Source: Tetracentron sinense | Lineage: Eukaryota; Streptophyta; Magnoliopsida; Trochodendrales; Trochodendraceae | Assembly (NCBI GenBank): GCA_015143295.1 | Contig: CM026559.1 | Coordinates: 19,978,826-20,042,825 of the forward strand | Direction of reading: 5' to 3' | DNA length: 64,000 nucleotides | Part shown: positions 3,055 through 63,293 of the stretch, in pieces | How positions within the stretch are numbered: the stretch's first letter is position 1 | Layout of the letters: each line of letters starts with the position of its first letter | Translations under genes and position numbers: made by a program | The notes under the pieces: model-generated | The model's input: the letters and a program-made list of their open reading frames with translations, nothing else | What the model was told of the DNA's origin: nothing | Databases searched by the model: none

Positions 3055-3192
3055 TTAATTTTCAGGAAATGGCCAAAAATCCAAATTCCATTTACTATCG
3101 GGGTAATCACCTACTGGATCTTCTTCTTCTTCGTACTCTTCCTCTTCCTAAGGTCCTGGGGCACAGATATCAAACCTAGAACCTGCCGACAA
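3055..3192 (-). pseudogene. Decayed LTR micro-ORF in LTR A
   Basis: On the minus strand, codons TTG-TCG-GCA-GGT (start ATG changed to TTG) open a 46-codon frame that aligns with the micro-ORF of LTRs F and G. It reads FDICAPGP, then a TAG where the others have Trp (PW), then EEEEYEEEE, and ends LDFWPFPEN-stop. The acidic core and the LD-W-P tail are retained although the nucleotide sequence is strongly diverged. The lost start and the Trp-to-stop change mark it as a relic. Function unknown. Confidence 0.5.
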
Positions 3193-16290: not shown

Positions 16291-16413
16291 ATGTTAGCAT
16301 GTGCTAGATTAGAAAGTTTTGACATATGTGCTCCTATTCCATGGGTTGAGGAAGACTATGGTGAGGAGGAACCTAATATAGAGCATCAAGTGGAAGATGA
16401 AGATTATTTCTAA
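16291..16413 (+). CDS. LTR micro-ORF in LTR B (40 aa, intact)
   Basis: An ATG-to-TAA frame of 41 codons near the end of LTR B. It reads MLACARLESFDICAP, then PWVEEDYGEEEP, then a short acidic tail ending EDEDYF. FDICAP is shared with LTRs A and I, and PWVEE-Y-EE-EP with E, F and G. It sits about 20 bases after a weak hairpin (TGAGTG/TACTCA-type arms), as in the other LTRs. The protein would be small, acidic and without signal peptide or membrane segment. I do not recognise it. Conservation of frame among diverged LTRs is the reason for calling it; expression is unknown. Confidence 0.5.
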   Translation: MLACARLESFDICAPIPWVEEDYGEEEPNIEHQVEDEDYF

Positions 16414-17705: not shown

Positions 17706-17846
17706 TCAACAGTAATCTAGATACAATCACACATCTAGATTCCTATCTATATGCGTCTGCATCGGGATAGGCGGCTCTCTCTCTTCCACATATTCCTCTT
17801 CAACCCAAGGCTCGGGGTCGAAGGCACCCTCCGGACCTACCGACAT
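17706..17846 (-). pseudogene. LTR micro-ORF in LTR E (one nonsense codon)
   Basis: Exactly 141 bases, the same length as in F and G: ATG-TCG-GTA-GGT start, core DPEPWVEEEYVEEREPPIP, tail LDV-stop-LYLDYC-stop. The only lesion is TGG to TGA at codon 40. Against G, codons 9-25 differ at eight sites, seven of which are synonymous third positions. That pattern is expected from coding constraint before LTR E died. Function unknown. Confidence 0.55.
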
Positions 17847-19384: not shown

Positions 19385-19525
19385 TCAACAGTAGTCGAGG
19401 TATGGCCACACATCGAGGTCTCGGTCCGCCTGAAACTGTAATGGAATAGCCGGCTCTCTCTCCTCTATATACTCTTCCTCGACCCAAGGCTCCGGGTCGA
19501 GGGCTCCCTCAGTACCTGCCGACAT
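19385..19525 (-). CDS. LTR micro-ORF in gypsy F 3' LTR (46 aa, intact)
   Basis: ATG-TCG-GCA-GGT opens a 47-codon frame ending TGA. Protein blocks: MSAGTEGA, DPEPWVEEEYIEEREP, a variable linker, LDVWPYLDYC. It is strongly acidic, with conserved Trp and Tyr, and has no signal peptide or membrane helix. Compared with G, the core (codons 9-25) and tail (36-46) differ by one Val/Ile change and otherwise only synonymous changes, while the linker varies freely. A hairpin (GAG/CTC arms) lies just upstream. It would be a leader ORF on the element RNA. Not recognised; expression unproven. Confidence 0.58.
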   Translation of the reverse strand: MSAGTEGALDPEPWVEEEYIEEREPAIPLQFQADRDLDVWPYLDYC

Positions 19526-19816
19526 GAAAGTACGACTGAGCATGGAATACTCAGCGAGTACAAGCTACTAGCAGACCATAACAATAATAAAAACACACAA
19601 TAGTAATATCATACAAGCAGTAATAGAAACATCACAAAAGAAACAGTATAAGGCATGATACAATACAAGCATCCTGACGTGCGTACATGAATGCGAAAAC
19701 GCCGATAAAACTCATGCATGAAAACCCCTATCATGTCCCGGTATGCCTCGTAGAAATCATGTATGCCTGCATGCATGAATGCATGATCATCATCTTGTAA
19801 ACCTCCATCTCGTAAC

Positions 19817-20160
19817 TTGTGAGCCAGAGGCTAGCACCCAAATCTCCCTGGGCTGCCAACCTCCTTGATATGCAATGCACTTGTGAGCCAGAGGCTAGCA
19901 CCCGAATGTCCCTGCGCTACCAACCTCCTTGTTATGAAATGCACTTGTAAGCCAGAGGTTAGTACCCGAATGTCCCTGGGCTACCAACCTCCTTGACAAT
20001 AGGTGATTTTTATTACTTGTTTAGTTTTCTTGTGAGCCAGAGGCTAGTACCCGAATGTCCCTGGGCTACCAACCTCCTTGACAATAGGTGTTTTAGGGTT
20101 TATCTTGTGAGCCAGAGGTTAGTACCCGAATCCTCCCTGGGCTACCAACCTCCTTGACAT
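19817..20160 (-). repeat. Five-unit tandem array in gypsy F 3' LTR
   Basis: Five units of 58-85 bp, each with TTGTGAGCCAGAGGYTAGYAC, CCCTGGGCTACC and AACCTCCTTG. Within a unit GAGGTTAGTACCC can pair with GGGCTACCAACCTC, so the RNA could form a row of hairpins. The G LTR has the same core in 69-bp units. Confidence 0.88.
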
Positions 20161-21137: not shown

Positions 21138-21283
21138 GACCGAGAGATCGGTGTTCTTGACCGAGCGATCGGTCAAAAACATGCTCTCTGGAAAATTTCC
21201 CCATACAAAATTTTCCACCAGTCGATAGATACCGATCGATCGGTTTTGGACCGATCGATCGCTCAGTGGACCGAGCGATCGGT
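21138..21283 (-). repeat. CCGATCGATCGG palindrome array, gypsy F 3' LTR
   Basis: Five or six copies of ACCGATCGATCGGT-like palindromes flank a spacer that reads (complement) TATCGACTGG, TTTTGTATGGGG, TTTTCCAGAGAG. The 5' LTR of the same element has about two more copies. The same spacer and palindromes occur in the copia D LTR. Confidence 0.85.
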
Positions 21284-24919: not shown

Positions 24920-25055
24920 CTGTGCGATTAAGTAACTACTATTAGTAGATTTCAAACAATCACAAGCATCATACATAGAATAACCCTTAGTATAAATAAT
25001 CACATAATAAACCATAGAAATTTTACACAACTTAGACTCTAGAATTTTTGCGTAC
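24920..25055 (-). other. Predicted gag-pol intron of gypsy F
   Basis: Reading on the minus strand, CAAG|GTACGC opens and TTAATCGCACAG|GCGC closes a 136-base AT-rich stretch. Removing it joins gag to pol in frame (Gln-Gly-Ala at the junction). Unspliced RNA would meet TAG seven codons after the last shared codon. G and I keep the same donor and acceptor. Confidence 0.6.
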
Positions 25056-26903: not shown

Positions 26904-27044
26904 TCAACAGTAGTCGAGGTATGGCCACACATCGAGGTCTCGGTCCGCCTGAAACTGTAATGGAATAGCCGGCTCTCTCTCCTCTATATACTCTTCCTCG
27001 ACCCAAGGCTCCGGGTCGAGGGCTCCCTCAGTACCTGCCGACAT
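26904..27044 (-). CDS. LTR micro-ORF in gypsy F 5' LTR (46 aa, intact)
   Basis: The same 47-codon frame as in the 3' LTR of this element, still intact although gag and pol carry four nonsense codons. In element sense it lies downstream of the palindrome array and leader and about 280 bases before the LTR end. A transcript starting in the LTR would therefore carry it as a leader ORF upstream of gag. Core DPEPWVEEEY and tail DVWPYLDYC are unchanged. Function unknown. Confidence 0.58.
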   Translation of the reverse strand: MSAGTEGALDPEPWVEEEYIEEREPAIPLQFQADRDLDVWPYLDYC

Positions 27045-27335
27045 GAAAGTACGGCTGAGCATGGAATACTCAGCGAGTACAAGCTACTAGCAGACCATAA
27101 TAATAATAAAAACACACAATAGTAATATCATACAAGCAGTAATAGAAATATCACAAAAGAAACAGTATAAGGCATGATACAATACAAGCATCCTGACGTG
27201 CGTACATGAATGCGAAAACGCCGATAAAACTCATGCTTGAAAACCCCTGTCATGTCCCGGTATGCCTCGTAGAAATCATGTATGCGTGCATGCATGAATG
27301 CATGATCATCATCTTGTAAACCTCCATCTCGTAAC

Positions 27336-27686
27336 TTGTGAGCCAGAGGCTAGCACCCAAATCTCCCTGGGCTGCCAACCTCCTTGATATGCAATGCACT
27401 TGTGAGCCAGAGGCTAGCACCCGAATGTCCCTGCGCTACCAACCTCTTTGTTATGAAATGCATGGTTTTCTTGTGAGCCAGAGGTTAGTACCCGAATGTC
27501 CCTGGGCTACCAACCTCCTTGACAATAGGTGATTTTTATTACTTGTTTAGTTTTCTTGTGAGCCAGAGACTAGTACCCGAATGTCCCTGGGCTACCAACC
27601 TCCTTGACAATAGGTGTTTTAGGGGTTATCTTGTGAGCCAGAGGTTAGTACCCGAATCCTCCCTGGGCTACCAACCTCCTTGACAT
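27336..27686 (-). repeat. Five-unit tandem array in gypsy F 5' LTR
   Basis: The same units as 19817-20160 with small indels between units, showing that the array changes faster than the rest of the LTR. Confidence 0.88.
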
Positions 27687-28663: not shown

Positions 28664-28849
28664 GACCGAGCGATCGGTGTTAATGACCGATCGATCGGTT
28701 GCCTACCGAGCGATCGGTGTTCTTGACCGAGCGACCGGTCAAAAACATGCTCTCTGGAAAATTTTCCCATACAAAATTTTCCACCTGTCGATAGATACCG
28801 ATCGATCGGTTTTGGACCGATCGATCGCTCAGTGGACCGAGCGATCGGT
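28664..28849 (-). repeat. CCGATCGATCGG palindrome array, gypsy F 5' LTR
   Basis: Seven or eight palindromes of the ACCGATCGATCGGT type, some with CGCTCGG variants, around the conserved TGTATGGG...CCAGAGAG spacer. It lies in the U3-like part upstream of the leader and is a candidate enhancer. Confidence 0.85.
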
Positions 28850-30307: not shown

Positions 30308-30460
30308 CTACAAAGACAATAAAATAAAATTTATTTTTAGAATATTGAAATGATAAAATTTACAGATTTCATAATTAATTAATATGCAAAGAAGAAAAAT
30401 AAGGAACAAGGTTCAATCACTAACATGCATGCAAACTCATCACTAACCGCACACCACACC

Positions 30461-31345
30461 AAATCCTAATCGGGTCTCGGTTTTCGATGTTGTTTTTTCT
30501 AACGTGTGTATTTTAACATAACCTAAGTGTGGGAATTGGTTTCGAGTGAATCCGAGGTCGTTTGCCCGATTTGGGCACTGAGTAGGCCGAATTCCCAAGT
30601 TCTAAAGGTTTGGCTTAAACATACAACCGCTCATCAAATCCTAATCGGGCCTCAGTTTTCCATGTCATTTCTTCTAACGCGTGTATTTTAATACAACCTA
30701 AGTGTGGGAATTGGTTTCGAGTGAATCCGAGATCGTTTGCTCGATTTGGGCACCGAGTAGGCCGAATTCCCAAGTTCTTAAGGTTTAGCATAAACCTACA
30801 ACCGCCCATCAAATCCTGACCGGGCCTCGATTTTCAGTGTTGTTTCTTCTAACTCATGTATTTTAACATAACCTAAGTATGAGAATTGGTTTCGAGTGAA
30901 TCCGAGGTCATTTGCCCGATTTGGGTACCGTGTAGTCCGAATTCCTAAGTTCTAAAGAATAGTTTGGCCTAAACCTACAACCGCCCATCAAATCCTAACC
31001 GGGCCTCGGTTTTCAATGTCGTTTCTTCTAACGTGTGTATTTTAACACAACCTAAGTGTGGGAATTGGTTTCGAGAGAATCCGAGGTCGTTTGCCCGATT
31101 TGGCCACCAAGTAGGCCGAATTCCCAAGTTCTAAAGAATAGTTTGGCCTAAACCTACAACCGCCCATCAAATCCTAACCGGGCCTCGGTTTTCGATGTCG
31201 TTTCTTCTAATAGGTATATTTAACACAACCTAAGTGTAAGAATTAGTTTCGAGTGAATCCGAGGTTGTTTGCCCGATTTGGGGACCGAGTAAGCCAAATT
31301 CCCAAGTTCTAAAGAGTTTAGCCTAAACCAACAACTGCCCATCAA
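30461..31345 (+). repeat. Five-copy 175-179 bp tandem array
   Basis: Units begin near 30461, 30636, 30811, 30990 and 31169 at AAATCCTAACCGGGCCTCGG. Each contains CTAAGTGTGGGAATTGG, TTTCGAGTGAATCCGAGG, TTTGCCCGATTTGGG and CCGAATTCCCAAGTTCT. Copies differ by scattered substitutions and short indels. No coding frame is conserved across units. It is probably internal to the CACTA element. Confidence 0.85.
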
Positions 31346-31769: not shown

Positions 31770-31954
31770 ACCGATCGCTCGGTGTTGAGACCGATCGATC
31801 GGTGGCCTACCGAGCGATCGGTGACTATCGACTGGACAAAAAATTTGTATGGGGTATTTTTCCAGAGAGATGATTTTCAACCGCTCGATCGGTTATGAGC
31901 ACCGATCGATCCGTTTTGGACCGAGCGATCGGTAATGTGCACCGATCGATCGGT
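31770..31954 (+). repeat. CCGATCGATCGG palindrome array in copia D 5' LTR
   Basis: Seven palindromes, some variants (CCGATCGCTCGG, CCGCTCGATCGG, CCGATCGATCCG), around the spacer CTATCGACTGG, TTTGTATGGGG, TTTTTCCAGAGAG. Array and spacer match the gypsy F/G LTRs. It ends about 47 bases before the TATA box. Confidence 0.88.
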
Positions 31955-41418: not shown

Positions 41419-42648
41419 TGTAAATCCCTAAGTAGGTGTTGGCAAATTCCGTGATCATTAGATAGGTCATGTGAGTCGAGTCGTGTTCAACTTGTCAGAA
41501 GAGAAGAGCTAAAGCATCAAGAAGATTGAAGAAAGTGAAGAAAAAGCTCCTACTCTGGATCTAGAAAGGTAATGGACTTAGAGACCCCTACCTAGGTTGG
41601 ATTTGACTTAGATAACTCTAAACATACCTAGGAGGATAGTTTTAAACCTAATAAAGTTGTTTGATCTTAGTTGAATCAAGTAAACTTAAAATGAAGTATG
41701 GTTTGAAACAAATTCTGTCTCAACCGATCGCTCGGTGTTGAGACCGATCGATCGGTGGCCTACCGAGCGATCGGTGGCTATCGACTGGACAAAAAATTTG
41801 TATGGGGTATTTTTCCAGAGAGATGATTTTCAACCGCTCGATCGGTTATGAGCACCGATCGATCCGTTTTGGACCGAGCGATCGGTAATGTGCACCGATC
41901 GATCGGTCCCCGTAAAAAGAATTTTTATTTTTCTGGATTCTTTTTTTAAACCCTATATAAACAACTTTTTGGAGACCTAATTCTTATCTTTGTTTATTTT
42001 TGAAAGAGTAGAGGTCTGAGAAACTCATCTAGGGTTTTTCCTATTGTTCTTATTAGATATTTGTTGATCCCTCCTCTTTCTTTGATCCTAGAGAATGCAA
42101 GTATAGATCTAAACCTTTGATCTTGCATTGTGTGATCTCAGATCTATATGAGATCCCTCTAGGGTTTGAAACTTCCAAATTGATTCACAACCCTACACCT
42201 TGTGTGTGTGTCCGGTGTTTGATCCGGAGCCTTCGTGGAAGGAGATCGATCGTGTGTGATCATGGTTTTGAAGTAGCTTGAGAAGATTTGGTCGGTGTGG
42301 AATCGAAGCTGCTACGGCGGAGATCGAACCTGCTAGTTCGTGGAAATCAAGAGTAAGAGTCTATACCTAGGAACGTCGTTTCTGTTTTGGTAAGTTCTTA
42401 TCTTGTACTTAAAATCTTTTCATAGTGAAGTTTATTGCTGGACGAGGTCCCGTGGTTTTTTCCCGTTAGGGTTTTCCACGTAAAAATCTTCTGTGTTTGA
42501 TTTGTGTGGATTGTCTGAGTGAATTGTTCATTGATTTCTAAACATATTAATTGAAAAATTAAAATTGGTTAGAAATTATTAGATAACCCTTTTCCCCCCC
42601 CCCCCCCCCCCTCTAGGTCTTAGAGATCATTGATCTGGATAAATTTCA
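41419..42648 (+). repeat. Copia D 3' LTR
   Basis: 1230 bp, nearly identical to the 5' LTR. The palindrome array is at 41723-41907. Differences include loss of one CTCCTA unit and a C-tract expanded from 7 to about 20 residues near 42594-42611. Confidence 0.95.
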
Positions 42649-45405: not shown

Positions 45406-45943
45406 TGATTTGGTTTTACAAAAGTTCAAAAGATAACGATTTTGAAAAGATGTGCATGGTCATGTTAAGTTTTGAAGTGTGATTTCTATGTTTGGTTTAA
45501 GCATGTATTATGAACTGTCCATGCTCAGCCGTACATTTTATGTCGACAGGTCTATTTGACATTTGTGCTCCCGAAACATTGTGTCAAGGAAGATTACGGG
45601 GAGGAGGAGCCAACAGATGCTCAGCCAGAGGAGGATAGGAACCTAGATAGGTGGTCTTATCCTAAGTATTATTGAGAGAGGGTGAGTGAGAGATTATATT
45701 TTGTATTTTGATGAGTGTGCATGTCCACTTGATTTTTTTGTAATGTAATCTTTTGTACAAACTTGGAATACACCTTGGAATACGGTGTATAAATAAAAGA
45801 AATTTTCAGTTTACGCTTCCTCTATGTTTATCACTTCTACTATATTATTGACTTGTATGTTTTATATAGAATGGTTTTTCATGAAAGATTAGTCACGCAC
45901 AAAGTCACACCTAACTCTTAGGTGGGATTTTGGGGGCACGACA
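45406..45943 (+). repeat. Gypsy I 5' LTR, 3' fragment
   Basis: Matches 62955-63544 of the 3' LTR (starting TTTGGTTTTAC) with a deletion of about 75 bases that removes the hairpin arm. Ends GGGGGCACGACA before the PBS. Confidence 0.8.
45540..45675 (+). pseudogene. LTR micro-ORF in gypsy I 5' LTR (frameshifted)
   Basis: ATG-TCG-ACA-GGT opens MSTGLFDICAPE, then a one-base change of frame leads into KEDYGEEEP, QPEEDRNLDRW and YY-stop. The total of 136 bases against 135 in the 3' LTR shows a single-base insertion. Confidence 0.5.
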
Positions 45944-46371: not shown

Positions 46372-47608
46372 ATGAGACGTGGCAATCAAGGTTGTGGACA
46401 CCATACTAGGAGTAGTGGAACATCTCCTCCTCCAACAGGTTATGCACTGCCCAATTTTTCTCAGGCATTGGGGTCTATAGCAGAGACCTTGGCTATTCTG
46501 GCAGCCAGGCCGACTGCTATTGCACCTCCACCTGCACCTCATTCTGTCCACCACACTGCAGGACTTAAGGCATTTAGGAGATTGCATCCTCCTACCTTCT
46601 TCGACCACTGATCCTATAGTCGCCGAGGCATGGATCATACAACTGGAAAAGATCTTTCAGGTACTCCACTGTACGGATGAGCAACGTGTCAACTGGGCCA
46701 CCTTCATGATGGAAGGTGCTACCAAGCACTGGTGGAGGGCTACACTAAGGCAGAGAGATGACACTAGGGCAGAAGAGCCGTGGTCATGGGGGGAGTTTTT
46801 GGATGTCTTTTACAAGAAGTACTTTCCCACGGCTATTAAGGAGCTGGATTTCCTCTCCTTAGAGCAGGGAGATATGCATGTCACGGACTATGAGGCAACA
46901 TTTGTGGATTTGTCTAGATTCGCTCCTCATTTGATTTCTTCAAAAAATATGAAGGCGAGGAAGTTTAAGAGAGGCTTAAAGGCCTTCATCCGAGATCGGG
47001 TCTCGATGTTCCAAGTGGGCACTTAGGGGGTAGTGGTGAGCAAATCAAAGCTTACCGAGAAGAATTTTGGAAAGTTCTTCAAGATGAGAGATGTAGGCTT
47101 TGCAAGAGGCCAGTTTAGTGGCTCGGGGCCACCAAAGAAGAAGGCTAGGATAGCCCAGTAACAGGTAGCTAGGCCTATGCAGACACAGAGGCTTCCTTTT
47201 GTACCACCAGCATCTCGTCCAACTACTACGCAAGCAGCTTGGCCTGTTTTTTCTCAAGCCACTAGGTATGTGCCACTTGCATCCTCATCATCATTCGAGG
47301 AGTGTTCTTTTTGTGGCCGAAGGCACTAGGCCGGAGAGTGTCGGAGAACATCTGGAGGGTGTTTCCATTGTGGCTAGTAGGGGCACATGATTAGAGATTG
47401 TCCACGCCGACAGTTGCAGACTCAGCTTCAGGGTAACAGGCCCCCAGTCCAGTAGAATTTTCTACAGGGATCTTCGTAGGCTTCTTCTTCAAGACCCACA
47501 TGGCCCACAAAGCCGCCTCGCCAGGCGAACAAGGGTTGGGTCTTTGCCATGACCGAGCGGGACACATAGGCATCTGATGATGTTGTGCAAGGTACGCGTG
47601 AGTTGTAA
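46372..47608 (+). pseudogene. gag: Gypsy I gag, frameshifted
   Basis: MRRGNQGCG start at 46372, FSQALGSIAETLAILAAR, frameshift near 46610, then EAWIIQLEKIF, WRATLRQ, WGEFLDVFYKKYFP and LEQGDMHVTDYE. After a stop near 47025 the knuckle CFHCG--GHMIRDC appears near 47370 with stops in place of residues, and the end ASDDVVQ precedes the predicted intron. Homologous to G gag throughout but not functional. Confidence 0.88.
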
Positions 47609-47733
47609 ATTTTTCAAGTTATAAATTGATTGTTATTATGTTGAATATGCCTGCTTATGTGTATAACATGCTACCTATATGCTATGTATGTTCTTCTTGA
47701 GATTTATTGACCTTAGTTAACTATAATGCATAG
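47592..47733 (+). other. Predicted gag-pol intron of gypsy I
   Basis: CAAG|GTACGC and TATAATGCATAG|GCAC bound 142 bases with little similarity in the middle to the G intron. Joining gives Gln-Gly-Thr-Leu-Leu in frame; unspliced RNA meets TAA five codons later. Confidence 0.6.
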
Positions 47734-50664: not shown

Positions 50665-50876
50665 TGTAGCACCCCGGACTTTTTCATCCTTAATGAATAC
50701 CACCTTCATAGCTAATTGGCCGTTTTTATAGTCTAATTAATAAATAAGGAAGAAATCGGAAATTCCGAAACGTCAGAAATGTGCGTTTTCGAAAGACGAA
50801 CCCAACGCAAGTTGAATCGTCGAAATCCGACGAGCGAGTCAAAAGATATGGTCAAAACAGTCCAGACATACAGAAG

Positions 50877-51062
50877 ACCGATCGCTCGGTCCAGTCAGCG
50901 ATCGATCGGTCCATAACCGATCGATCGGTAGCTATCGCACGGTCAGAAATTTTGTATGGGGAAATTTTCCAGAGAGTGAGTTTTTGACCGGTCGATCGGT
51001 CATAAACACCGATCGCTCGGTAGGCAACCGATCGATCGGTCATAACCACCGATCGCTCGGTC
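50877..51062 (+). repeat. CCGATCGATCGG palindrome array, gypsy G 5' LTR
   Basis: Seven palindromes, ACCGATCGCTCGGT and ACCGATCGATCGGT types, around AGCTATCGCACGG, TTTTGTATGGGG and TTTTCCAGAGAG. Repeated unchanged at 58507-58692 in the 3' LTR. Confidence 0.88.
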
Positions 51063-52043
51063 TTCGCGTTTTTGCAGAAATTTCAGTAAGGGCTTTATCG
51101 TCTTTTGGGGGTTAAACCCTTTCTCCTTAAGGCTTGCCCGAGCCTTTAGGGCTTCATTCACAACACTTAAGGGATTTTGAGAGATAGAGAGAGAGGAGAA
51201 GGGGATTTGCAACTAGGGTTTTCCATTTGGAGAAGGAATCAAAGGGGTTTAAGAACCCTAGCTCACCCCAACTCGAGTTGCTTCAAGTTCAAGGCCCAAG
51301 CTCGTGTGGGGACTCATTCTCCAAGCTAGGGCAGCAACCCAAGCACGTTTTTGAAAGGGGTTTCTTCCCCAACTCAAGCTTCTTTCAAGCAAAGGCTTCA
51401 TCTTTCAAGTTGGAGCTTCAATCAAGGCCCCTACCAAGGATCAAGCCTTGATTCAAGGTTAGTACACCCTACTAACTTTCCCTAGCAATAACCTAGGTTT
51501 TCTAGTGTAAATGGTGATTATATATATTATGCTTTTCCTTCCCTATGCATTGTATTAACTCAACAAATATAAACAAGATAAGGGGAATGGAATAAATGTG
51601 TGGATGGGATGTCGATTGAGGCGATTGGATGCCGTATGGATGTTGTGTGATGTGTGAAAAGGAAAATGGAAGATGGGCACTTTACAAATAACGAATGTAC
51701 CTTGATGTCTTGATGAAAAATACGCACTAAATAAGGGAAATGGAAGGACTAAGAAATGTGGCCCACCGTGTGTTTGATAAAATGACTAAACAAGGGATAA
51801 ACGGACTTAATGAAGAAAATGGAAATAGAAATTGTGTAAATTTTCTTGGAAATGATAAATTGCTCAATTGTGCTATATGTTGCCTAAATTTTCATACCAC
51901 TATGTTAAGGATTGAAATGCCATATTCATGTGATCCGCCCATTCAAGTATGTCATCATGATTACCACTATTGACAAGCACACAAGCACGCATGCATGCAT
52001 GAATTGGGTTTTCCAAGAGTAATTGTGCATAATAAAGCAAACA

Positions 52044-52459
52044 AGAGAAATGAAGCAAGAACATGACAAGGAGGTTGGTAGCCCAAGGAAGGGTGCTAGC
52101 CTCTGGCTCACAAGAGAAATGGAACAAGAACATGACAAGGAGGTTGGTAGCCCCAGGAAGGGTGCTAGCCTCTGGCTCACAAGTGAAATGAAACAAGAAC
52201 ATGACAAGGAGGTTGGTAGCCCCAGGAAGGGTGCTAGCCTCTGGCTCACAAGTGAAATGAAACAAGAACATGACAAGGAGGTTGGTAGCCCCAGGAAGGG
52301 TGCTAGCCTCTGGCTCACAAGTGAAATGAAACAAGAACATGACAAGGAGGTTGGTAGCCCAAGGAAGGGTGCTAGCCTCTGGCTCACAAGAGAAATGGAA
52401 CAAGAACATGACAAGGAGGTTGGTAGCCCAAGGAAGGGTGCTAGCCTCTGGCTCACAAG
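52044..52459 (+). repeat. Six-unit 69-bp tandem array, gypsy G 5' LTR
   Basis: Six near-identical 69-bp units: CATGACAAGGAGGTTGGTAG, CCCCAGGAAGGGTGCTAGCC, TCTGGCTCACAAG. GAGGTTGGTAGCCC can pair with GGGTGCTAGCCTC in each. Because 69 is a multiple of three, several frames stay open, which is not evidence of coding. Confidence 0.93.
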
Positions 52460-52704
52460 TATACAAGTCAAGAACAAATCAAGACATGAAATACAAGACA
52501 AGACACGATACACATACATGATTTGACCGAGACACGAAAAGGGTTTCCGAGACATGAGTTTTACCGAGGTTTTTGCATTCATACACGCATGTCAAGATAT
52601 GGCTATGTATCTTATGCTTTTACTATTGCTTTAAATTAATATCTTGTATTGCTCACTGTTGTTATGCTTTCGCTATTGTTATGGTTAGCTAGTAGTTTGT
52701 ACTC

Positions 52705-52725
52705 GCTGAGTATTCCATGCTCAGC
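52705..52725 (+). promoter_or_regulatory. Hairpin upstream of the LTR micro-ORF
   Basis: GCTGAG, nine-base loop, CTCAGC: a perfect 6-bp stem ending nine bases before the micro-ORF ATG. The other LTRs keep the stem with different bases (TGAGTAT/ATACTCA in I, GAGTAAC/GTTACTC in A). Confidence 0.5.
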
Positions 52726-52734
52726 CGTACTTTT

Positions 52735-52875
52735 ATGTCGGCAGGTACTGTGGATGTCCTCGACCCCGAGCCTTGGGTCGAGGAGGAGTATGTAGAGGAG
52801 AGGGAGCCACCTATCCCATGGCAGTCTCAAGAGGATGGGGACTTGGATGTGTGGCCATACCTCGACTACTGTTGA
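52735..52875 (+). CDS. LTR micro-ORF in gypsy G 5' LTR (46 aa, intact)
   Basis: ATG-TCG-GCA-GGT to TGA, 47 codons. Blocks: MSAGTVDV, DPEPWVEEEYVEEREP, linker PIPWQSQEDGD, LDVWPYLDYC. About 14 acidic residues against one basic one; three Trp. No signal peptide, membrane segment or known domain. Position: after the tandem array and hairpin, 280 bases before the LTR end, so within the leader of a genomic RNA begun in the LTR. The TCGGCAG at codons 2-4 could alternatively be a splice acceptor, making this a last exon. Compared with E, F and B, changes in the core are almost all synonymous. Function not known. Confidence 0.6.
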   Translation: MSAGTVDVLDPEPWVEEEYVEEREPPIPWQSQEDGDLDVWPYLDYC

Positions 52876-53158
52876 GAGGACAGTGTTAGAAAGTTCCTTT
52901 TTGTATTTTGATAGGTGGGCATGTCCACCTTTACTTTGATTGTATTTAGTATATGTTAACTTGGAATACTATATGGAGTAATAGAAGAAAAGAAAAAGTT
53001 GGCTTATGCTTTCGCACTTATGTTTAGTTCCGCGCTCTGATTATCATTGTATTATGTTATGTTTAGCCTCTTGCATTACAGGATGGTTTGACAGGTACAC
53101 GTAGTCACCTCTAAAGTATCCCTTAACTCCTAGGGGGTATTTTGGGGCGTGACAGAAG

Positions 53159-53170
53159 TGGTATCAGAGC
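53159..53170 (+). promoter_or_regulatory. Gypsy G primer-binding site
   Basis: TGGTATCAGAGC, four bases after the 5' LTR, complementary to initiator Met-tRNA. Confidence 0.94.
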
Positions 53171-53482
53171 TCTAGGCATTAGAGTCCATAGGGTCACTTA
53201 GATGATTGAACAAGGTATTAGAATCACCTTAGAGAGTTGTATTCCAAGTATAGACTAACAAGTTAGTCTTAGTCAAAAATGGGTTGAACTTCAACCGAAC
53301 ATAGAGTCCTACGCTAGGAACACGGATTGTATGTTATGCTATTGTGTTATATACCATGTGTACATTATTTGTGTTGTACTTATTAAATGTGCTTGATGAG
53401 TATGTATTAAGTGAATTGCGAAATTGTACTAAATGCGTATCCAAGTTAGACTCATGTTGTATTGTCGTTCTCAGGAGAAATC

Positions 53483-54736
53483 ATGAGACGCAATACTCGG
53501 GGTCGCGGGTACAACACGAGGGGTAATGGAGGTGAGGCTCCATCGGGTGATGATCAACCCGACTTTGCCCAAGCATTCGCATCCATAGCCGAGACCTTGG
53601 CTATGTTGGCGGCAAGGCAACCGGCCACCCCGCCTAATGCGGCACTTATACCGGCTCCTCCTAATCGAGCCCAAGCCGGGATAGAAGCTTTCCGGAGGAT
53701 GAGGCCTCCAACTTTTTGTGGAAGCATTGATCCACTTATTGCCGAGGGTTGGATTCGGCAACTTGAGAAGATATTCTCGGTTTTGGCACCTACGGAAGTA
53801 GAGAGGGTCACATGGGCTGCCTTTATGCTTGAAGGCGAGGCCGACCATTGGTGGAAGTCTGCACTTCGGACCCGAGAGTTGACCCGGCAAGGCCAAGAAT
53901 GGACATGGGGAGAATTCTTGGACGTTTTCTACAAGAAATACTTTCCGGTTGGGATGAAAGAAAAGAAAGAAATTGAATTTATTACCTTGGAGCAAGGTAA
54001 TATGTCTGTAGCGGCTTACGAAGCCAAGTTCTCAGAGCTATCTCGATTTGCTCCACACATGATAGCTACCGAGGCTATGAAGGCCCGGAAATTCGAGAGG
54101 GGGTTGAAGGCCTACCTGAAGGATCGTGTCTCAATGTTCCGACATGAGACATATTCAGAAGTTGTGGACAAAGCATTGTTGGCCGAGTCTAATTCCGAAG
54201 AGTTCTTTAAGAGAAGAGGAATAGAGAAGGGACAGTCTAGTAGTTCAGGGGAGAAGAGAGCTAGGACTATGTCTTATCAGTCCGCCGGGCTGGCTCAGTC
54301 ACAGAGGAGGTACTCGGCACCACAGGCCCCCCGCCCTTTTTCTCCACCGGCTTTTCGCCCGGCTACCTCGTATGCTCCTCGCCCCGCAGTGACTCAGGCT
54401 ACGGGTTATACTCCTCCCACTTATTCACATGATGTCTGCACCCTTTGTGGAAGGAGGCATCCAGCAGGGGAATGTCGGAAGGCTACAGGAGGCTGTTTTC
54501 ATTGTGGCGACCAGGGCCACATGATTCGGGATTGTCCCCGACGTCTAATGCCAGCTCAGTCTTCGGGGAGCAGGCCCCCGATTAGGCAGACATCTCAGCC
54601 TAGCTCTTCTCAGGCTTCGAGGGCCTCACAGTCTGCCCGGCCTCCTCGCCCAGCCACTCAGGGTCGAGTTTTTGCTCTATCGGAAAGAGACGCACGTGCA
54701 TCCGACGATGTCGTGCAAGGTACGCGAGAATTTTGA
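53483..54736 (+). CDS. gag: Gypsy G gag (unspliced form)
   Basis: I start at ATG 53483 (MRRNTRGRG), the first ATG in frame and the one conserved in F and I. The 417-residue product has a Gly/Arg-rich N-terminus, a retrotransposon gag core (FRRMRPPTFCGS, GEADHWWKS, WGEFLDVFYKKYF, LEQGNMSV), a KAYLKDRVSMFRHETY block, then CTLCGRRHPAGEC (from residue 319) and the canonical knuckle CFHCGDQGHMIRDC (from 338), and a basic Pro/Ser/Arg tail. The last codons after GTGCAAG lie in the predicted intron, ending GTREF-stop. It forms the capsid and binds RNA. Confidence 0.95.
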   Translation: MRRNTRGRGYNTRGNGGEAPSGDDQPDFAQAFASIAETLAMLAARQPATPPNAALIPAPPNRAQAGIEAFRRMRPPTFCGSIDPLIAEGWIRQLEKIFSVLAPTEVERVTWAAFMLEGEADHWWKSALRTRELTRQGQEWTWGEFLDVFYKKYFPVGMKEKKEIEFITLEQGNMSVAAYEAKFSELSRFAPHMIATEAMKARKFERGLKAYLKDRVSMFRHETYSEVVDKALLAESNSEEFFKRRGIEKGQSSSSGEKRARTMSYQSAGLAQSQRRYSAPQAPRPFSPPAFRPATSYAPRPAVTQATGYTPPTYSHDVCTLCGRRHPAGECRKATGGCFHCGDQGHMIRDCPRRLMPAQSSGSRPPIRQTSQPSSSQASRASQSARPPRPATQGRVFALSERDARASDDVVQGTREF

Positions 54737-54852
54737 TTTTAAGTTGTATAAAATTTTGTGGTTTGTTATGCGATTAGTTATACTGAGGGTTACCTATGTA
54801 TGATGCTTGTTATTATTTGAAATCTACTTATATTAGTTACTTAATCGCACAG
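54720..54852 (+). other. Predicted gag-pol intron of gypsy G
   Basis: CAAG|GTACGC ... TTAATCGCACAG|GCGC, 133 bases, about 70% A+T. Splicing fuses gag and pol in one frame (Gln-Gly-Ala-Leu-Leu). Without it the pol frame is closed by TAG at 54834-54836, downstream of the gag stop, so ribosomal frameshifting at an overlap is not possible. Confidence 0.65.
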
Positions 54853-57800
54853 GCGCTTTATTAGTGAACGAGTGTCTCGCTCGAGTGTTGATAGACACAG
54901 GATCTACTCACTCTTTTGTCTCCCCAAGTTTTGTAAAGGGCTTTTCGACTGAGGCTACTCCGTTGGAGCGGGAGTTGACCATTGCAACTCCACTCGGCAA
55001 GTCGGTTGATACGGATAAGGTATTCAGGGATAGTGTGGTTCAAGTGGGGGAGAATGAATTGTTAGCCGACCTTATCGTCCTGGGTTTCCAAGATTTAGAC
55101 TTTGACGTCATTCTTGGTATGGATTGGTTGGCAAGCCATCACGGGCATGTTGCGTGTTTTGAAAAGATGGTGAATTTCAAGCCGGAAGGGGGTAAGCCTT
55201 TTCACTTCCGAGGATTAAGAGAGAGGGACATTGCTCGCCTCGCAGCCTTGAGTATAGCACACCCAGAAGCACAAAACTCATCGGCTATTCCAGTTGTGAG
55301 TGAGTTCTTAGATGTGTTCCCGGAAGAACTTCCCGGATTACCTCCTGATAGAGAGATTGAATTCGCTATAGAGCTCGCTCCGGGTACCGCTCCGATTTCA
55401 AGGGCACCATATAGAATGGCCCCTATAGAGCTTGAAGAATTAAAGAAGCAGATTGAGGAGTTACAACAACTTGGTTTCATCCAACCAAGTGTCTCGCCGT
55501 GGGGAGCTCCGGTTCTCTTTGTGAAGAAGAAGGACGGGTCTATGAGGATGTGTATAGACTACCGTCAGTTGAACAAGGTAACTATCAAGAATCGTTATCC
55601 CTTGCCAAGGATAGACGACTTGTTTGACCAACTGAAGGGAGCGAGATTCTTCTCCAAAATTGATCTTAGATCGGGGTATCACCAATTAAGGATCAAGGCG
55701 GAAGATGTTCAGAAGACGGCTTTCAGGACTCGGTATGGGCATTACGAGTTCCTTGTCATGCCTTTTGGGCTGACGAATGCACCGGCGGCATTCATGGATT
55801 TGATGAACCGGGTGTTCCGATCTTACTTGGATCGATGCGTGATTGCATTCATTGATGACATTTTGGTGTATTCCCAGACACGGGAAGATCACGCACGAGA
55901 CCTCCGTCTTGCTCTGGAGATGTTGAGAGAGCATAGGCTATATGCCAAATTGAGTAAGTGCGAGTTCTGGCTAGAGAAAGTCGCATTTCTTGGACACGTG
56001 GTGTCAGCCGAGGGTATTTCTGTAGACCCAGCCAAGGTTGAGGCAGTCATGAGTTGGGAGAGGCCCAAGAGCGTCACGGAGATACGTAGTTTCCTCGGAT
56101 TGGCAGGCTACTACCGGAGATTTGTGGAGGGATTCTCCAGTTTGGCTGCACCTCTCACCTACTTGACAAGGAAAAATGCAAAGTTCAGTTGGAGTGACCG
56201 ATGTGAAGTAAGTTTCCAAGAGTTGAAGAAATGCCTCACCACAGCCCCTGTCCTTACTGTGCCATCTGGACCTTTTGGGTATGAGGTGTACAGCGATGCC
56301 TCGCATGTTGGACTCGGGTGTGTCCTAATGCAACACAAGAAGGTCATTGCCTATGCATCAAGGCAGTTGAAAGAGCATGAAAAGAACTACCCCACTCACG
56401 ACTTGGAGCTTGCGGCGGTCGTGTTTGCACTTAAAATTTGGCGACATTATCTGTACGGGGTGGAGTTCTATGTGTACACGGACCACAAGAGCCTCAAGTA
56501 TCTCTTTTCCCAAAAAGAGTTAAACTTACGACAACGGCGTTGGATTGAGTTCTTAAAGGACTACGAGTGCACTATCCAATATCACCCGGGAAAAGCAAAT
56601 GTGGTGGCAGACGCTCTGAGTAGGAAGCCATCGGGGTTGTTGGCTCACATGTTGGTGCGGGAATGGAGACTGTTAGACGATTTGGCAAATCTAGACATCA
56701 GTGTGAACGATTCTGTCCGCAGTCCGGTTTTGGCAAATGTTACAGTTCGGCCGTACCTTATAGACTTGATCCAGGAGTATCAAGCCACAGACACTGACTT
56801 GTTGGCTTTCCGGGATAAGGAAGTGGCCAAGGGTAGTACGGACTTCTCTCTCACTAGCCGAGGTGCTATTACATTCAAGGGAAGGCTTTGTGTCCCAGCC
56901 AATGCAGACCTTCGGAGAGAGATTATGGACGAAGCTCACCGGTCTAAGTATACAGTGCATCCCGGGGGGACAAAGATGTACCGGAACCTCAAGAGTCACT
57001 TTTGGTGGCGAAACATGAAGAGGGAGGTTGCGGAGTATGTGGCACGGTGTTTGGTATGCCAACAGGTGAAAGCAGAGCATTTGAGACCAGCGGGTCTTTT
57101 GCAGTCTCTCCCTATTCCCGAGTGGAAATGGGAACATATCTCTATGGACTTCATCGTGGGATTGCCGAAGACGGTCAAGAAGACCGATGCTATATGGGTA
57201 GTTATTGATAGACTCACGAAGTCCGCTCATTTCTTACCATACCGGACTACATTCAACTCCAACCAGTTAGCAGAACTATACATCAAAGAAATAGTCCGAT
57301 TGCATGGGGTGCCAGTGAGTATTGTGTCGGATAGAGACCCAAGATTCACATCCAGGTTTTGGAAAAGTTTTCAAGGTGCAATGGGCTCCCGATTAGACTT
57401 TAGCACAGCTTTCCACCCACAGACCGACGGGCAAACCGAGAGGGTGAATCAGGTTATTGAAGATATGCTCCGAGCATGTATGCTAGACTTCAAGGGAAGT
57501 TGGGAAGATCACCTACCTTTGGTGGAATTCGCTTACAACAATAGTTATCAAGAAAGCATACAAATGGCGCCTTTCGAGGCTTTGTACGGAAGGAGTTGCA
57601 GATCCCCGTTGTATTGGGATGAAGTGGGAGAAAGAAAGATTTTGGGCCCCGAGTTGATTGAACAAACCGCGGATAGGGTCAAGCTTATCCGGGAGAGGTT
57701 GAAGACCGCACAAGATAGACAGAAAAGCTATGCCGACAACCGAAGGAGGGATCTTGAATTCCGAGTCGGTGATTTTGTGTTTGTAAGGATTTCACCGACC

Positions 57801-58184
57801 AAAGGTGTTATGCGATTCGGGAAGAGAGGCAAGCTTAGCCCGAGATATGTGGGTCCATTCGAGATCATTACTCGAGTTGGCGAGGTGGCTTACCGTGTTG
57901 CTTTGCCCGCTCACATGGCGGCGGTCCACAACGTGTTTCATATCTCCCAGCTTCGGAAGTACATCCCGGATCCTTCTCACGTCATCGAGCTTGATCCGGT
58001 TGAGATTCGAGAGGATCTCACTTTGGTTGAGAAGCCGGTTCATATTTTGGATCGAAGAGACCAAGTACTTCGCAACAAGACTATTCCGCTAGTTCTCGTG
58101 CAATGGCAACATCACGCTCGAGAAGAGGCTACATGGGAACGTGAGGCCGAAGTCAAGGCGAAGTACCCCGAGTTGTTTCAATGA
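54853..58184 (+). CDS. pol: Gypsy G pol (PR-RT-RH-IN-chromodomain), intact
   Basis: Exon after the predicted intron, open to TGA 58182-58184. Numbered from GTG 54864: protease D11-T-G-S, RT with [12 protein letters not shown] and FIDD at about 329, RNase H YSDAS at about 476, integrase zinc-binding H699 ... CLVC near 728, catalytic D762, D823 and E859 (D,D35E), and a C-terminal chromodomain from about 1047 with [15 protein letters not shown], ending YPELFQ. The chromodomain and domain order place it in the Tekay/Del chromoviruses, where the chromodomain guides integration into heterochromatin. It has no stop or frameshift. There is no in-frame ATG at the start, consistent with translation as part of Gag-Pol. 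Confidence 0.96.
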
Positions 58185-58294: not shown

Positions 58295-60784
58295 TGTAGC
58301 ACCCCGGACTTTTTCATCCTTAATGAATACCACCTTCATAGCTAATTGGCCGTTTTTATAGTCTAATTAATAAATAAGGAAGAAATCGGAAATTCCGAAA
58401 CGTCAGAAATGTGCGTTTTCGAAAGACGAACCCAACGCAAGTTGAATCGTCGAAATCCGACGAGCGAGTCAAAAGATATGGTCAAAACAGTCCAGACATA
58501 CAGAAGACCGATCGCTCGGTCCAGTCAGCGATCGATCGGTCCATAACCGATCGATCGGTAGCTATCGCACGGTCAGAAATTTTGTATGGGGAAATTTTCC
58601 AGAGAGTGAGTTTTTGACCGGTCGATCGGTCATAAACACCGATCGCTCGGTAGGCAACCGATCGATCGGTCATAACCACCGATCGCTCGGTCTTCGCGTT
58701 TTTGCAGAAATTTCAGTAAGGGCTTTATCGTCTTTTGAGGGTTAAACCCTTTCTCCTTAAGGCTTGCCCGAGCCTTTAGGGCTTCATTCACAACACTTAA
58801 GGGATTTTGAGAGATAGAGAGAGAGGAGAAGGGGATTTGCAACTAGGGTTTTCCATTTGGAGAAGGAATCAAAGGGGTTTAAGAACCCTAGCTCACCCCA
58901 ACTCGAGTTGCTTCAAGTTCAAGGCCCAAGCTCGTGTGGGGACTCATTCTCCAAGCTAGGGCAGCAACCCAAGCACGTTTTTGAAAGGGGTTTCTTCCCC
59001 AACTCAAGCTTCTTTCAAGCAAAGGCTTCATCTTTCAAGTTGGAGCTTCAATCAAGGCCCCTACCAAGGATCAAGCCTTGATTCAAGGTTAGTACACCCT
59101 ACTAACTTTCCCTAGCAATAACCTAGGTTTTCTAGTGTAAATGGTGATTATATATATTATGCTTTTCCTTCCCTATGCATTGTATTAACTCAACAAATAT
59201 AAACAAGATAAGGGGAATGGAATAAATGTGTGGATGGGATGTCGATTGAGGCGATTGGATGCCGTATGGATGTTGTGTGATGTGTGAAAAGGAAAATGGA
59301 AGATGGGCACTTTACAAATAACGAATGTACCTTGATGTCTTGATGAAAAATACGCACTAAATAAGGGAAATGGAAGGACTAAGAAATGTGGCCCACCGTG
59401 TGTTTGATAAAATGACTAAACAAGGGATAAACGGACTTAATGAAGAAAATGGAAATAGAAATTGTGTAAATTTTCTTGGAAATGATAAATTGCTCAATTG
59501 TGCTATATGTTGCCTAAATTTTCATACCACTATGTTAAGGATTGAAATGCCATATTCATGTGATCCGCCCATTCAAGTATGTCATCATGATTACCACTAT
59601 TGACAAGCACACAAGCACGCATGCATGCATGAATTGGGTTTTCCAAGAGTAATTGTGCATAATAAAGCAAACAAGAGAAATGAAGCAAGAACATGACAAG
59701 GAGGTTGGTAGCCCAAGGAAGGGTGCTAGCCTCTGGCTCACAAGAGAAATGGAACAAGAACATGACAAGGAGGTTGGTAGCCCCAGGAAGGGTGCTAGCC
59801 TCTGGCTCACAAGAGAAATGGAACAAGAACATGACAAGGAGGTTGGTAGCCCCAGGAAGGGTGCTAGCCTCTGGCTCACAAGTGAAATGAAACAAGAACA
59901 TGACAAGGAGGTTGGTAGCCCCAGGAAGGGTGCTAGCCTCTGGCTCACAAGTGAAATGAAACAAGAACATGACAAGGAGGTTGGTAGCCCAAGGAAGGGT
60001 GCTAGCCTCTGGCTCACAAGAGAAATGGAACAAGAACATGACAAGGAGGTTGGTAGCCCAAGGAAGGGTGCTAGCCTCTGGCTCACAAGTATACAAGTCA
60101 AGAACAAATCAAGACATGAAATACAAGACAAGACACGATACACATACATGATTTGACCGAGACACGAAAAGGGTTTCCGAGACATGAGTTTTACCGAGGT
60201 TTTTGCATTCATACACGCATGTCAAGATATGGCTATGTATCTTATGCTTTTACTATTGCTTTAAATTAATATCTTGTATTGCTCACTGTTGTTATGCTTT
60301 CGCTATTGTTATGGTTAGCTAGTAGTTTGTACTCGCTGAGTATTCCATGCTCAGCCGTACTTTTATGTCGGCAGGTACTGTGGATGTCCTCGACCCCGAG
60401 CCTTGGGTCGAGGAGGAGTATGTAGAGGAGAGGGAGCCACCTATCCCATGGCAGTCTCAAGAGGATGGGGACTTGGATGTGTGGCCATACCTCGACTACT
60501 GTTGAGAGGACAGTGTTAGAAAGTTCCTTTTTGTATTTTGATAGGTGGGCATGTCCACCTTTACTTTGATTGTATTTAGTATATGTTAACTTGGAATACT
60601 ATATGGAGTAATAGAAGAAAAGAAAAAGTTGGCTTATGCTTTCGCACTTATGTTTAGTTCCGCGCTCTGATTATCATTGTATTATGTTATGTTTAGCCTC
60701 TTGCATTACAGGATGGTTTGACAGGTACACGTAGTCACCTCTAAAGTATCCCTTAACTCCTAGGGGGTATTTTGGGGCGTGACA
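58295..60784 (+). repeat. Gypsy G 3' LTR
   Basis: 2490 bp, same features as the 5' LTR: palindrome array 58507-58692, tandem array 59674-60089, hairpin 60335-60355. Visible differences are one G/A near 58738 and two in the third tandem unit. Confidence 0.96.
60365..60505 (+). CDS. LTR micro-ORF in gypsy G 3' LTR (46 aa, intact)
   Basis: Identical to the copy at 52735-52875. In the 3' LTR it would lie near the end of the genomic RNA if polyadenylation is downstream. Confidence 0.58.
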   Translation: MSAGTVDVLDPEPWVEEEYVEEREPPIPWQSQEDGDLDVWPYLDYC

Positions 60785-63158: not shown

Positions 63159-63293
63159 ATGTCAGTAGGTCCATTTTATATTTGTGCTCCCGGGTCATAG
63201 GTCGAAGAGGACTACGGGGAGGAGGAGCCAGCAGAGGCTCAGCCAGAGGAGGATAGGAACTTGGATAAGTGGCCTTATCTTGGGTATTATTGA
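63159..63293 (+). pseudogene. LTR micro-ORF in gypsy I 3' LTR (one nonsense codon)
   Basis: ATG-TCA-GTA-GGT opens a 45-codon frame: MSVGPFYICAPGS, TAG where F and G have Trp, VEEDYGEEEP, QPEEDRNLDKWPYLGYY, TGA. Only one stop breaks it although gag and pol of the same element are heavily decayed. Confidence 0.52.

Follow-up and report, generated by a model that had tools for sequence, protein, structure and literature searches.

Does the long terminal repeat (LTR) of a plant retrotransposon harbour a coding exon, and if so, to which protein would this exon belong? The question is raised by a 64,000-nt stretch of the Tetracentron sinense genome (assembly GCA_015143295.1, contig CM026559.1, positions 19,978,826 to 20,042,825 of the forward strand; hereafter the window), where elements of several families, designated here by capital letters, carry a small frame within their LTRs. 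LTRs are usually taken as non-coding regulatory sequence, and annotation would miss a selected coding exon situated there. A preliminary description of the window suggested protein-level selection on this frame and offered three options for its role, namely a leader open reading frame (ORF), an accessory protein or the last exon of a spliced LTR transcript. Here we present evidence for a selected coding exon and propose that it may encode an alternative tail of Gag.

The small frame and its coding constraint

The frame was found in all nine LTR intervals for which it had been claimed. In element G it occupies positions 52735–52875 of the 5' LTR (plus strand, ATG included) and, in identical form, 60365–60505 of the 3' LTR; in element F it lies on the minus strand, at 19385–19525 in the 3' LTR with a twin at 26904–27044. 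Both F and G frames proved to be intact, as stated, with 46 codons and no difference inside each pair. The B frame (16291–16413, plus strand) is open too, but it comprises only 40 codons and has a different tail, without WPYLDYC. The lesions ascribed to older copies were likewise seen: an in-frame TGA at codon 40 of E (17706–17846, minus strand), TTG instead of ATG and a stop at codon 15 in A (3055–3192, minus strand), and in element I, on the plus strand, a frameshift in the 5' LTR copy (45540–45675) and a stop at codon 14 in the 3' LTR copy (63159–63293). The first argument for selection holds less generally. Eight codons do differ between E and G within codons 9–25, seven of them synonymously, but this interval favours the claim: over the entire frame 26 codons differ between E and G (12 synonymous), and 17 between F and G (8 synonymous).

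Searches were made in the window's own genome (1.16 Gb). The core heptapeptide PWVEEEY, coded by CCNTGGGTNGARGARGANTAY in any codon spelling, had 20,857 exact genomic sites (10,458 + 10,399), against none for the reversed control of the pattern, which places the frame far beyond chance. A search with the G peptide scored 150 of 32,220 candidates, each identical to it across 46 residues.

Selection was assessed on 40 copies from one contig (C1), picked mainly from the first 100 core sites listed so as to cover different codon spellings; as the core was the sampling key, its codons were left out of the codon-position test. Between subfamilies, 20 disjoint pairs had 98/462, 84/460 and 158/457 mismatches at codon positions 1, 2 and 3 of the frame, and third positions thus exceeded first and second ones taken together (158/457 vs 182/922; Fisher p=4e-9). 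The flank 3' of the stop was even across the same three phases (148/986, 158/976 and 170/965; p=0.17). The ratio of nonsynonymous to synonymous substitution rates (dN/dS, NG86) of the exon was 0.31, and not near 1, over 17 disjoint pairs, and 0.33 in the 10 closer ones among them; the 17 pairs represent 34 of the 40 copies, since in L076, L079, L080, L086, L087 and L091 no in-phase acceptor could be recognised and these were left out. Insertions and deletions against the window reference were counted in older copies sampled by DNA similarity (48 copies: E 10, A 6, B 4, I 28), with those shared by descent counted once per copy. Non-triplet events were depleted in the frame (18 in 6,470 bp) relative to the flanks (214 in 16,580 bp). 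Of all events, 12/30 in the frame were triplets vs 26/240 in the flanks. One result of the same sample speaks against selection, namely a flat codon-position profile in each old family (E p=0.34, A p=0.24, B p=0.12, I p=0.71); we read it as neutral decay after insertion, with the signal residing between active lineages. The earlier claim of protein-level selection inside an LTR is nevertheless supported by the third-position excess, the dN/dS of 0.31 and the depletion of indels, and we consider it very likely that the LTR contains a selected coding exon.

Splice acceptor or start codon

Where does this exon begin? Among 57 sequences surveyed, 52 had a site matching TCGGCAGGT at no fewer than 7 of 9 positions, a selection that inflates the conservation seen there. 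In these, YAG was intact in 49 and YAG/GT in 48 (the slash marks a splice junction), and base −3 was C or T in all 52. The GCA-like codon ended in A in 52/52 despite other changes (GTA 7, ACA 4, TCA 1), as did the GGT-like codon in T (AGT 3, GAT 1), in contrast to the core codons, whose third bases vary. The distance from exon start to core ranged from 23 to 44 nt and equalled 2 modulo 3 in 50/52, with L079 and L091 as exceptions. The content of G and C (GC) rose from 34.5% in the 100 nt before the exon to 51.7% within it, and was 37.3% over the following 100 nt. As for the five sequences excluded, inspection by eye showed that L080, L086 and window copy B keep the A and T; L087 has lost one base nearby, and in L076 the site could not be placed. 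In sequence terms, a conserved YAG/GT with AT-rich DNA on its 5' side and GC-rich DNA on its 3' side is what a plant 3' splice site that opens a phase-1 exon looks like. In the 3' LTR of G the putative acceptor region, ATGTCGGCAG, spans 60365–60374 (plus strand) with an optional ATG inside; it adjoins the open, family-constrained coding exon at 60375–60505 (plus strand), whose leading GT would complete a Gly codon and which ends in TGA.

The exon lies between two hairpins. HP1 (GCTGAGTAT-TCC-ATGCTCAGC) is situated just 5' of the acceptor (52705–52725, plus strand; second copy 60335–60355), and at least 7 Watson-Crick pairs were formed in 66% of 47 copies vs 1.3% of shuffles. HP2 (AGGTGG-loop-CCACCT) lies 3' of the stop codon (52913–52930, plus strand; second copy 60543–60560); its excess over shuffles was weak overall (11% vs 5%), and its stems vary as pairs between copies (GAGTGG/CCACTC, AGGTGG/CCACCT, GAGCGA/TCGCTC). 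These hairpins on either side may control access to the acceptor and tune its use, or may act in 3'-end formation.

The strong conservation of HP1, the constraint on YAG/GT at the nucleotide level and the flat codon profile within old families would also suit a block conserved as RNA or DNA, for hairpins, packaging or integration, in which the frame is incidental. We regard this as most improbable: between subfamilies the frame shows the codon-position signal and the flank does not, the interval that separates exon start and core keeps its phase in 50/52 despite its variable length, and it is non-triplet indels that are depleted in the frame.

Several sampled copies have an open frame without ATG. 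With the peptide of one of them, L097, 150 scored matches had at least 85% identity, 137 of these free of internal stop. In the subfamily to which such copies belong, the triplet 5' of the acceptor was TCA in 15/15 copies read, and in 12/15 there was no in-frame ATG from the preceding stop to the core. The pattern-sampled pair L090/L097 differed at a proportion of 0.55 of synonymous (pS) and 0.11 of nonsynonymous (pN) sites, and seven pairs from the 15 copies gave dN/dS 0.13, a value to be read with the fact that 13/15 were protein-sampled, which favours conserved copies. On these comparisons, the ATG-less subfamily is also constrained. Across families the ATG is less conserved than the YAG/GT that follows it (29 vs 48 of 52 recognisable sites), and the bases 5' of it resemble a splice acceptor. 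In other subfamilies the number of nucleotides that separate the ATG from the upstream hairpin differs by single bases, an argument against any coding sequence farther 5'. From the constrained ATG-less copies, the preference for YAG/GT over ATG, the acceptor-like context and the hairpin spacing we conclude that the frame is probably not a free-standing ORF. Of the three options of the preliminary description, the same grounds favour the last exon of a spliced LTR transcript; a leader ORF or an accessory protein started from the ATG fits less well.

It should be added that a spliced leader is predicted for gag. The donor of G with the top matrix score is CAAG/GTTAGTAC in the 5' LTR (exon end 51457; junction 51457–51458, plus strand). 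The exact motif AAG/GTTAGTA was present in G, F1 and 14/38 G-copy loci, AAG/GTAGATA in the ATG-less L129 and L130 (2/2 SSAG loci) and AAG/GTAAATA in 3/5 I loci looked at. A matching acceptor, TTCTCAG/GA, lies a few bases 5' of the gag ATG (53474–53475, plus strand); CTCAG was found in 19/20 gag heads read, the exception being window copy I with CTCAAG. Together, the leader donor and the CTCAG/GA acceptor predict a spliced gag leader. The stretch 5' of the donor was free of ATG for 275–499 nt in 6/7 sites (G, F1, L129, L130, L049, L050), with 499 nt in G and only 20 nt in L044. The donor itself sits in an inverted repeat, GTTAGTA-CACCC-TACTAAC (window 51458–51476 and 59088–59106), of which L129 has a looser form, GTAG...CTAC, and TATA-like boxes (CCTATAAAAGGC, CCTATATAAGGGC) occur 5' of it in L129 (1065–1076) and L130 (1039–1051). 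Near the LTR end there is a partly conserved acceptor/donor-like pair, ACAG/GATGGTTTGACAG/GTAC (window 53082–53094; also F, E, B and L129), possibly another leader exon.

Such a leader would permit a free-standing microprotein of about 46 residues, made from a short LTR transcript in which the ATG-free leader exon is spliced to the acceptor 5' of the LTR ATG. The ATG is there in 29/52 recognisable copies, it could come first in the message in the 6/7 sites with a long ATG-free leader, and F, G and B have an intact frame. On the other hand, 12/15 copies of the ATG-less subfamily have no in-frame ATG and are constrained all the same, with 137 of the 150 scored matches free of internal stop; the context of the ATG is more acceptor-like than start-like, and it is YAG/GT that is kept. 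The leader-to-exon junction pattern had 7 genomic matches, all of them ordinary or mutated LTRs, so that none among the 7 was a processed copy of leader-to-LTR-exon splicing. A microprotein of this kind therefore appears unlikely.

Within the 5' LTR the frame, with hairpins around it, follows the predicted leader exon and precedes gag, a position that would also suit an upstream ORF (uORF) regulating gag translation. Splicing of the leader to the pre-gag acceptor would, however, exclude the frame from the message, regulation by uORFs seldom requires constraint across the entire frame, and the explanation fails for the ATG-less copies; we give it little credence.

The gag/protease intron and a proposed LTR-coded tail

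In element G, gag (53483–54719, plus strand; Pfam matches Retrotrans_gag, Ty3_capsid and zf-CCHC) extends to a phase-1 donor, CAAG/GTACGC, behind which lies an intron of 133 nt with 29% GC (54720–54852, plus strand); its counterparts measure 136 nt in F (24920–25055, minus strand) and 142 nt in I (47592–47733, plus strand). This gag/protease intron is absent from the preliminary description. In a survey of gag ends, nine regions reached the site and a tenth, L157, did not. The nine introns were 133–160 nt long with 21–34% GC, all in phase 1; the GT donor was present in 9/9 and the AG kept in 7/9 (AA in L154 and L158). Unspliced, the gag frame usually ends in a stop after a few codons (at 54736 in G; later in L152). 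Spliced, 8/9 run on into VVQ-G-(A/T/S)LL(V/M)NE..., followed by the protease signature DTGSTH, or NTGSTH in L154, and the ninth, L158, has a further lesion. An intron-less gag/protease junction pattern matched 72 exact genomic sites from several subfamilies (control 0), and all three sites fetched were in frame through the junction. The intact gag-end donor pattern had 5,604 genomic sites, the two patterns differing in stringency, so that the ratio to 72 is only rough. The intron-less sites are best explained as reverse-transcribed spliced RNA, and we hold the splicing of this intron to be highly probable.

A 2025 review describes plant LTR elements as generally intron-free, with exceptions that include Ogre and EVADE (PMC12786077); against this background, an intron for which the genome contains processed copies is of value by itself. 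PMC6317226 describes an intron between GAG-PROT and RT (reverse transcriptase) in Ogre, of the Tat lineage of Ty3/gypsy, spliced in a part of transcripts to give the whole polyprotein, and a 172-bp gap between two ORFs in Bianca (Ty1/copia). The likeness consists in a non-coding stretch within the polyprotein region. Unlike in Ogre, the intron here is placed between gag and protease, is 133–160 nt long and belongs to a chromodomain-type element in which the LTR exon has the same phase. The elements are thus not members of Ogre (Tat lineage, PROT/RT intron); they are intron-containing plant LTR elements, with splicing read from genomic copies.

If a phase-1 exon has no start codon, a coding exon ending in phase 1 must precede it, and the gag/protease intron offers the most plausible source of such an exon. 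A coding leader exon was rejected, because it has no ATG in G and F2, no open frame is shared and, in F, a stop stands beside the junction. An exon from the gag start, through GGAG/GTGAGG (phase 1, 53531 in window G), was also discarded: seven other G copies read GTGATG, and I and short-type gag heads lack the site. Two donor-like sites in pol were tested and found to be in phase 0. The gag-end donor has the matching phase, is common to the families reached and leaves processed copies, and on these three grounds we propose a Gag with an LTR-coded tail, made by splicing to the 3' LTR.

In this model the LTR frame would be a coding exon that starts in phase 1 at the YAG/GT acceptor and, in the 3' LTR, serves as an alternative last exon of gag; in G the expected last exon is the copy at 60375–60505. 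Left unspliced, the gag-end donor would yield Gag, usually with few extra residues; joined to the protease acceptor about 140 nt away, it would yield Gag-Pol; joined to the 3' LTR acceptor, with pol skipped, it would yield Gag with an acidic tail. The 15 tails aligned have 28–47 residues and contain the core PWVEEEY; those of many subfamilies finish with aromatic residues, as in WPYLDYC. Comparison of copies supports the coding constraint, the acceptor signature with its phase and the gag/protease intron with its splicing; from there we infer the gag-to-LTR join, a poly(A) site 3' of the exon and a function of the tail, perhaps in a Gag isoform for assembly or RNA handling. We lean towards the joining of the LTR exon to the gag-end donor as an alternative last exon of gag, which appears to be the best-supported mechanism. 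For the broader proposal, that a widespread lineage of plant gypsy elements has a three-way switch at the gag end, with the tail as a functional domain conserved in a third isoform of Gag and the LTR as a translated part of the element, we see the chances as even.

Several observations weigh against the proposed Gag tail. The phase match alone has a one-in-three chance, and a second phase-1 donor-like site exists in gag at 53996 and also in family B (L148). The AG of the LTR acceptor is lost (CAA/GT) in 3/52 copies, one of them, L130, in the ATG-less subfamily, and its polypyrimidine tract is short; in the majority of recognisable copies, 29/52, an ATG stands just 5' of it. The leader donor is lost in the F2 LTR, where the GT is gone, and 24/38 G-copy loci lack the exact motif. 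The tail motif was absent from 34 gag relatives outside the window genome. A pattern for the Gag-to-tail junction had no genomic site, a result that neither supports nor refutes the join, since such an RNA would be without the polypurine tract and U3 and no new insertions are expected from it.

The site at 53996 (CAAG/GTAATA, phase 1) leads to a related alternative, in which the LTR exon is joined to another upstream exon, ending at this inner gag donor or unrecognised here. The site is kept between G and F and in L148, and ATG-less copies need an upstream start. The ATG-less L129, however, has CAGG/GTGCGA at that place, a poor donor, and the processed copies show use of the gag-end donor only, which makes a join of this kind distinctly unlikely.

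Relatives and comparable systems

Outside the window genome, a search for relatives with a single peptide found none. A profile of 15 tails retrieved two ENA proteins, P0035 (48 aa, 743-nt contig, E 4e-6) and P0036 (47 aa, 753-nt contig, E 1e-5), which share QCAP.PWVEE.YVEEPAE..PTEDDYHPDQWPYP. Their exon start reads Ala-Gly and Ala-Ser, respectively, and the predicted Met is farther upstream than in MSAG, as judged from protein sequences only; this different placement of Met was counted in favour of an exon over an ATG-started frame. Another ENA protein, P0002 (247 residues), ends in ASDDVVQG plus 11 other residues and represents the same gag boundary from another source. Pfam gave no match for the three peptides scanned. 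The sole viral_contigs match (L159, PWVEEDY) comes from a GC-rich phage-like contig and was dismissed as fortuitous, which shows that the core heptapeptide is not diagnostic by itself. The leading matches in the openly accessible PMC literature held nothing on a peptide encoded in the LTRs of plant gypsy elements, nor on a Tekay/Del intron, and PMC4029996 (Del LTRs), searched by term, contains neither 'ORF' nor 'open reading frame' nor 'splic'.

Coding sequence within an LTR that is reached by splicing is found in retroviruses (sag of mouse mammary tumour virus, the end of lentiviral nef). Hosts and element class differ from the present case, and the likeness lies in the layout. Among retrotransposons, a 2.9-kb pol segment of Drosophila copia is spliced out to give a Gag-only mRNA (PMC3735527), and spliced Gag-only mRNAs are described for EVADE and for sunflower elements (shGAG RNAs; PMC12786077, PMC7730604). 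Copia, BARE1, EVADE and sunflower shGAG resemble our model in a splice at or after the gag end. However, copia, BARE1 and EVADE are Ty1/copia elements, and in EVADE and BARE1 the splice causes a frameshift that terminates Gag within a few codons, whereas a conserved LTR-coded tail is proposed here. In a comparison with the shGAG type, splice sites and phase fit, and the Gag-to-tail junction is absent from genomic DNA. CERV of Cer1, a Caenorhabditis elegans Ty3/gypsy element, is described in PMC10309623 as gag-frame exons spliced to a last exon downstream of pol, and as required for nuclear export of unspliced genomic RNA. Unlike in that account of CERV, the tail has 28–47 residues, lies inside the LTR and would follow nearly the whole of Gag. 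If true, the model would add a third Gag form with a logic comparable to that of CERV or a retroviral accessory protein, and would give a sequence-level answer, for one lineage, to the old question of what lets plant gypsy elements produce Gag in excess of Pol.

Structure and repeats of element G

Element G is a young insertion: its 5' LTR (50665–53154, plus strand) and 3' LTR (58295–60784, plus strand) differ by 3 mismatches in 2,490, they have the ends TGTAGC...GTGACA (TG..CA), and the 5-bp target-site duplication CTTTT is present on both sides. The primer binding site, TGGTATCAGAGC (53159–53170, plus strand), we take to be of the tRNA-Met type. The pol exon (54853–58184, plus strand) comprises protease, RT, RNase H, integrase and a chromodomain-like end, with Pfam matches in 55119–58181 to RVT_1, RT_RNaseH, Integrase_H2C2, rve and Chromo; those to Chromo (E=2e-4, 21.6 bits, cut-off 25.1) and rve (21.4, cut-off 32.6) are below cut-off. 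The order gag, protease, RT, RNase H and integrase with a C-terminal chromodomain is thus found in window 53483–58181. From the long LTRs and the primer binding site, we provisionally regard the frame-bearing elements as Tekay/Del-like Ty3/gypsy.

The LTRs also contain tandem arrays, located at window 52041–52459 and 59671–60089 in G (69 nt) and at 19815–19996 and 27334–27685 in F (64 and 85 nt). Their periods are unlike, and they have a common unit, GGTTGGTAGCCC...GGGTGCTAGCCTCTGGCTCACAAG, which could fold on itself and part of which seems to recur in family B. Other arrays are rich in the CpG-rich palindrome ACCGATCGATCGGT (window 50877–51062, 58507–58692, 21231–21281, 28664–28847, 31880–31954 and 41833–41907); in G and F they occupy the upstream portion of each LTR, ahead of the presumed promoter, and similar stretches exist in L129 and L130. 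A further tandem array, at window 30460–31345, consists of five copies of a 175-bp unit with 88% matches.
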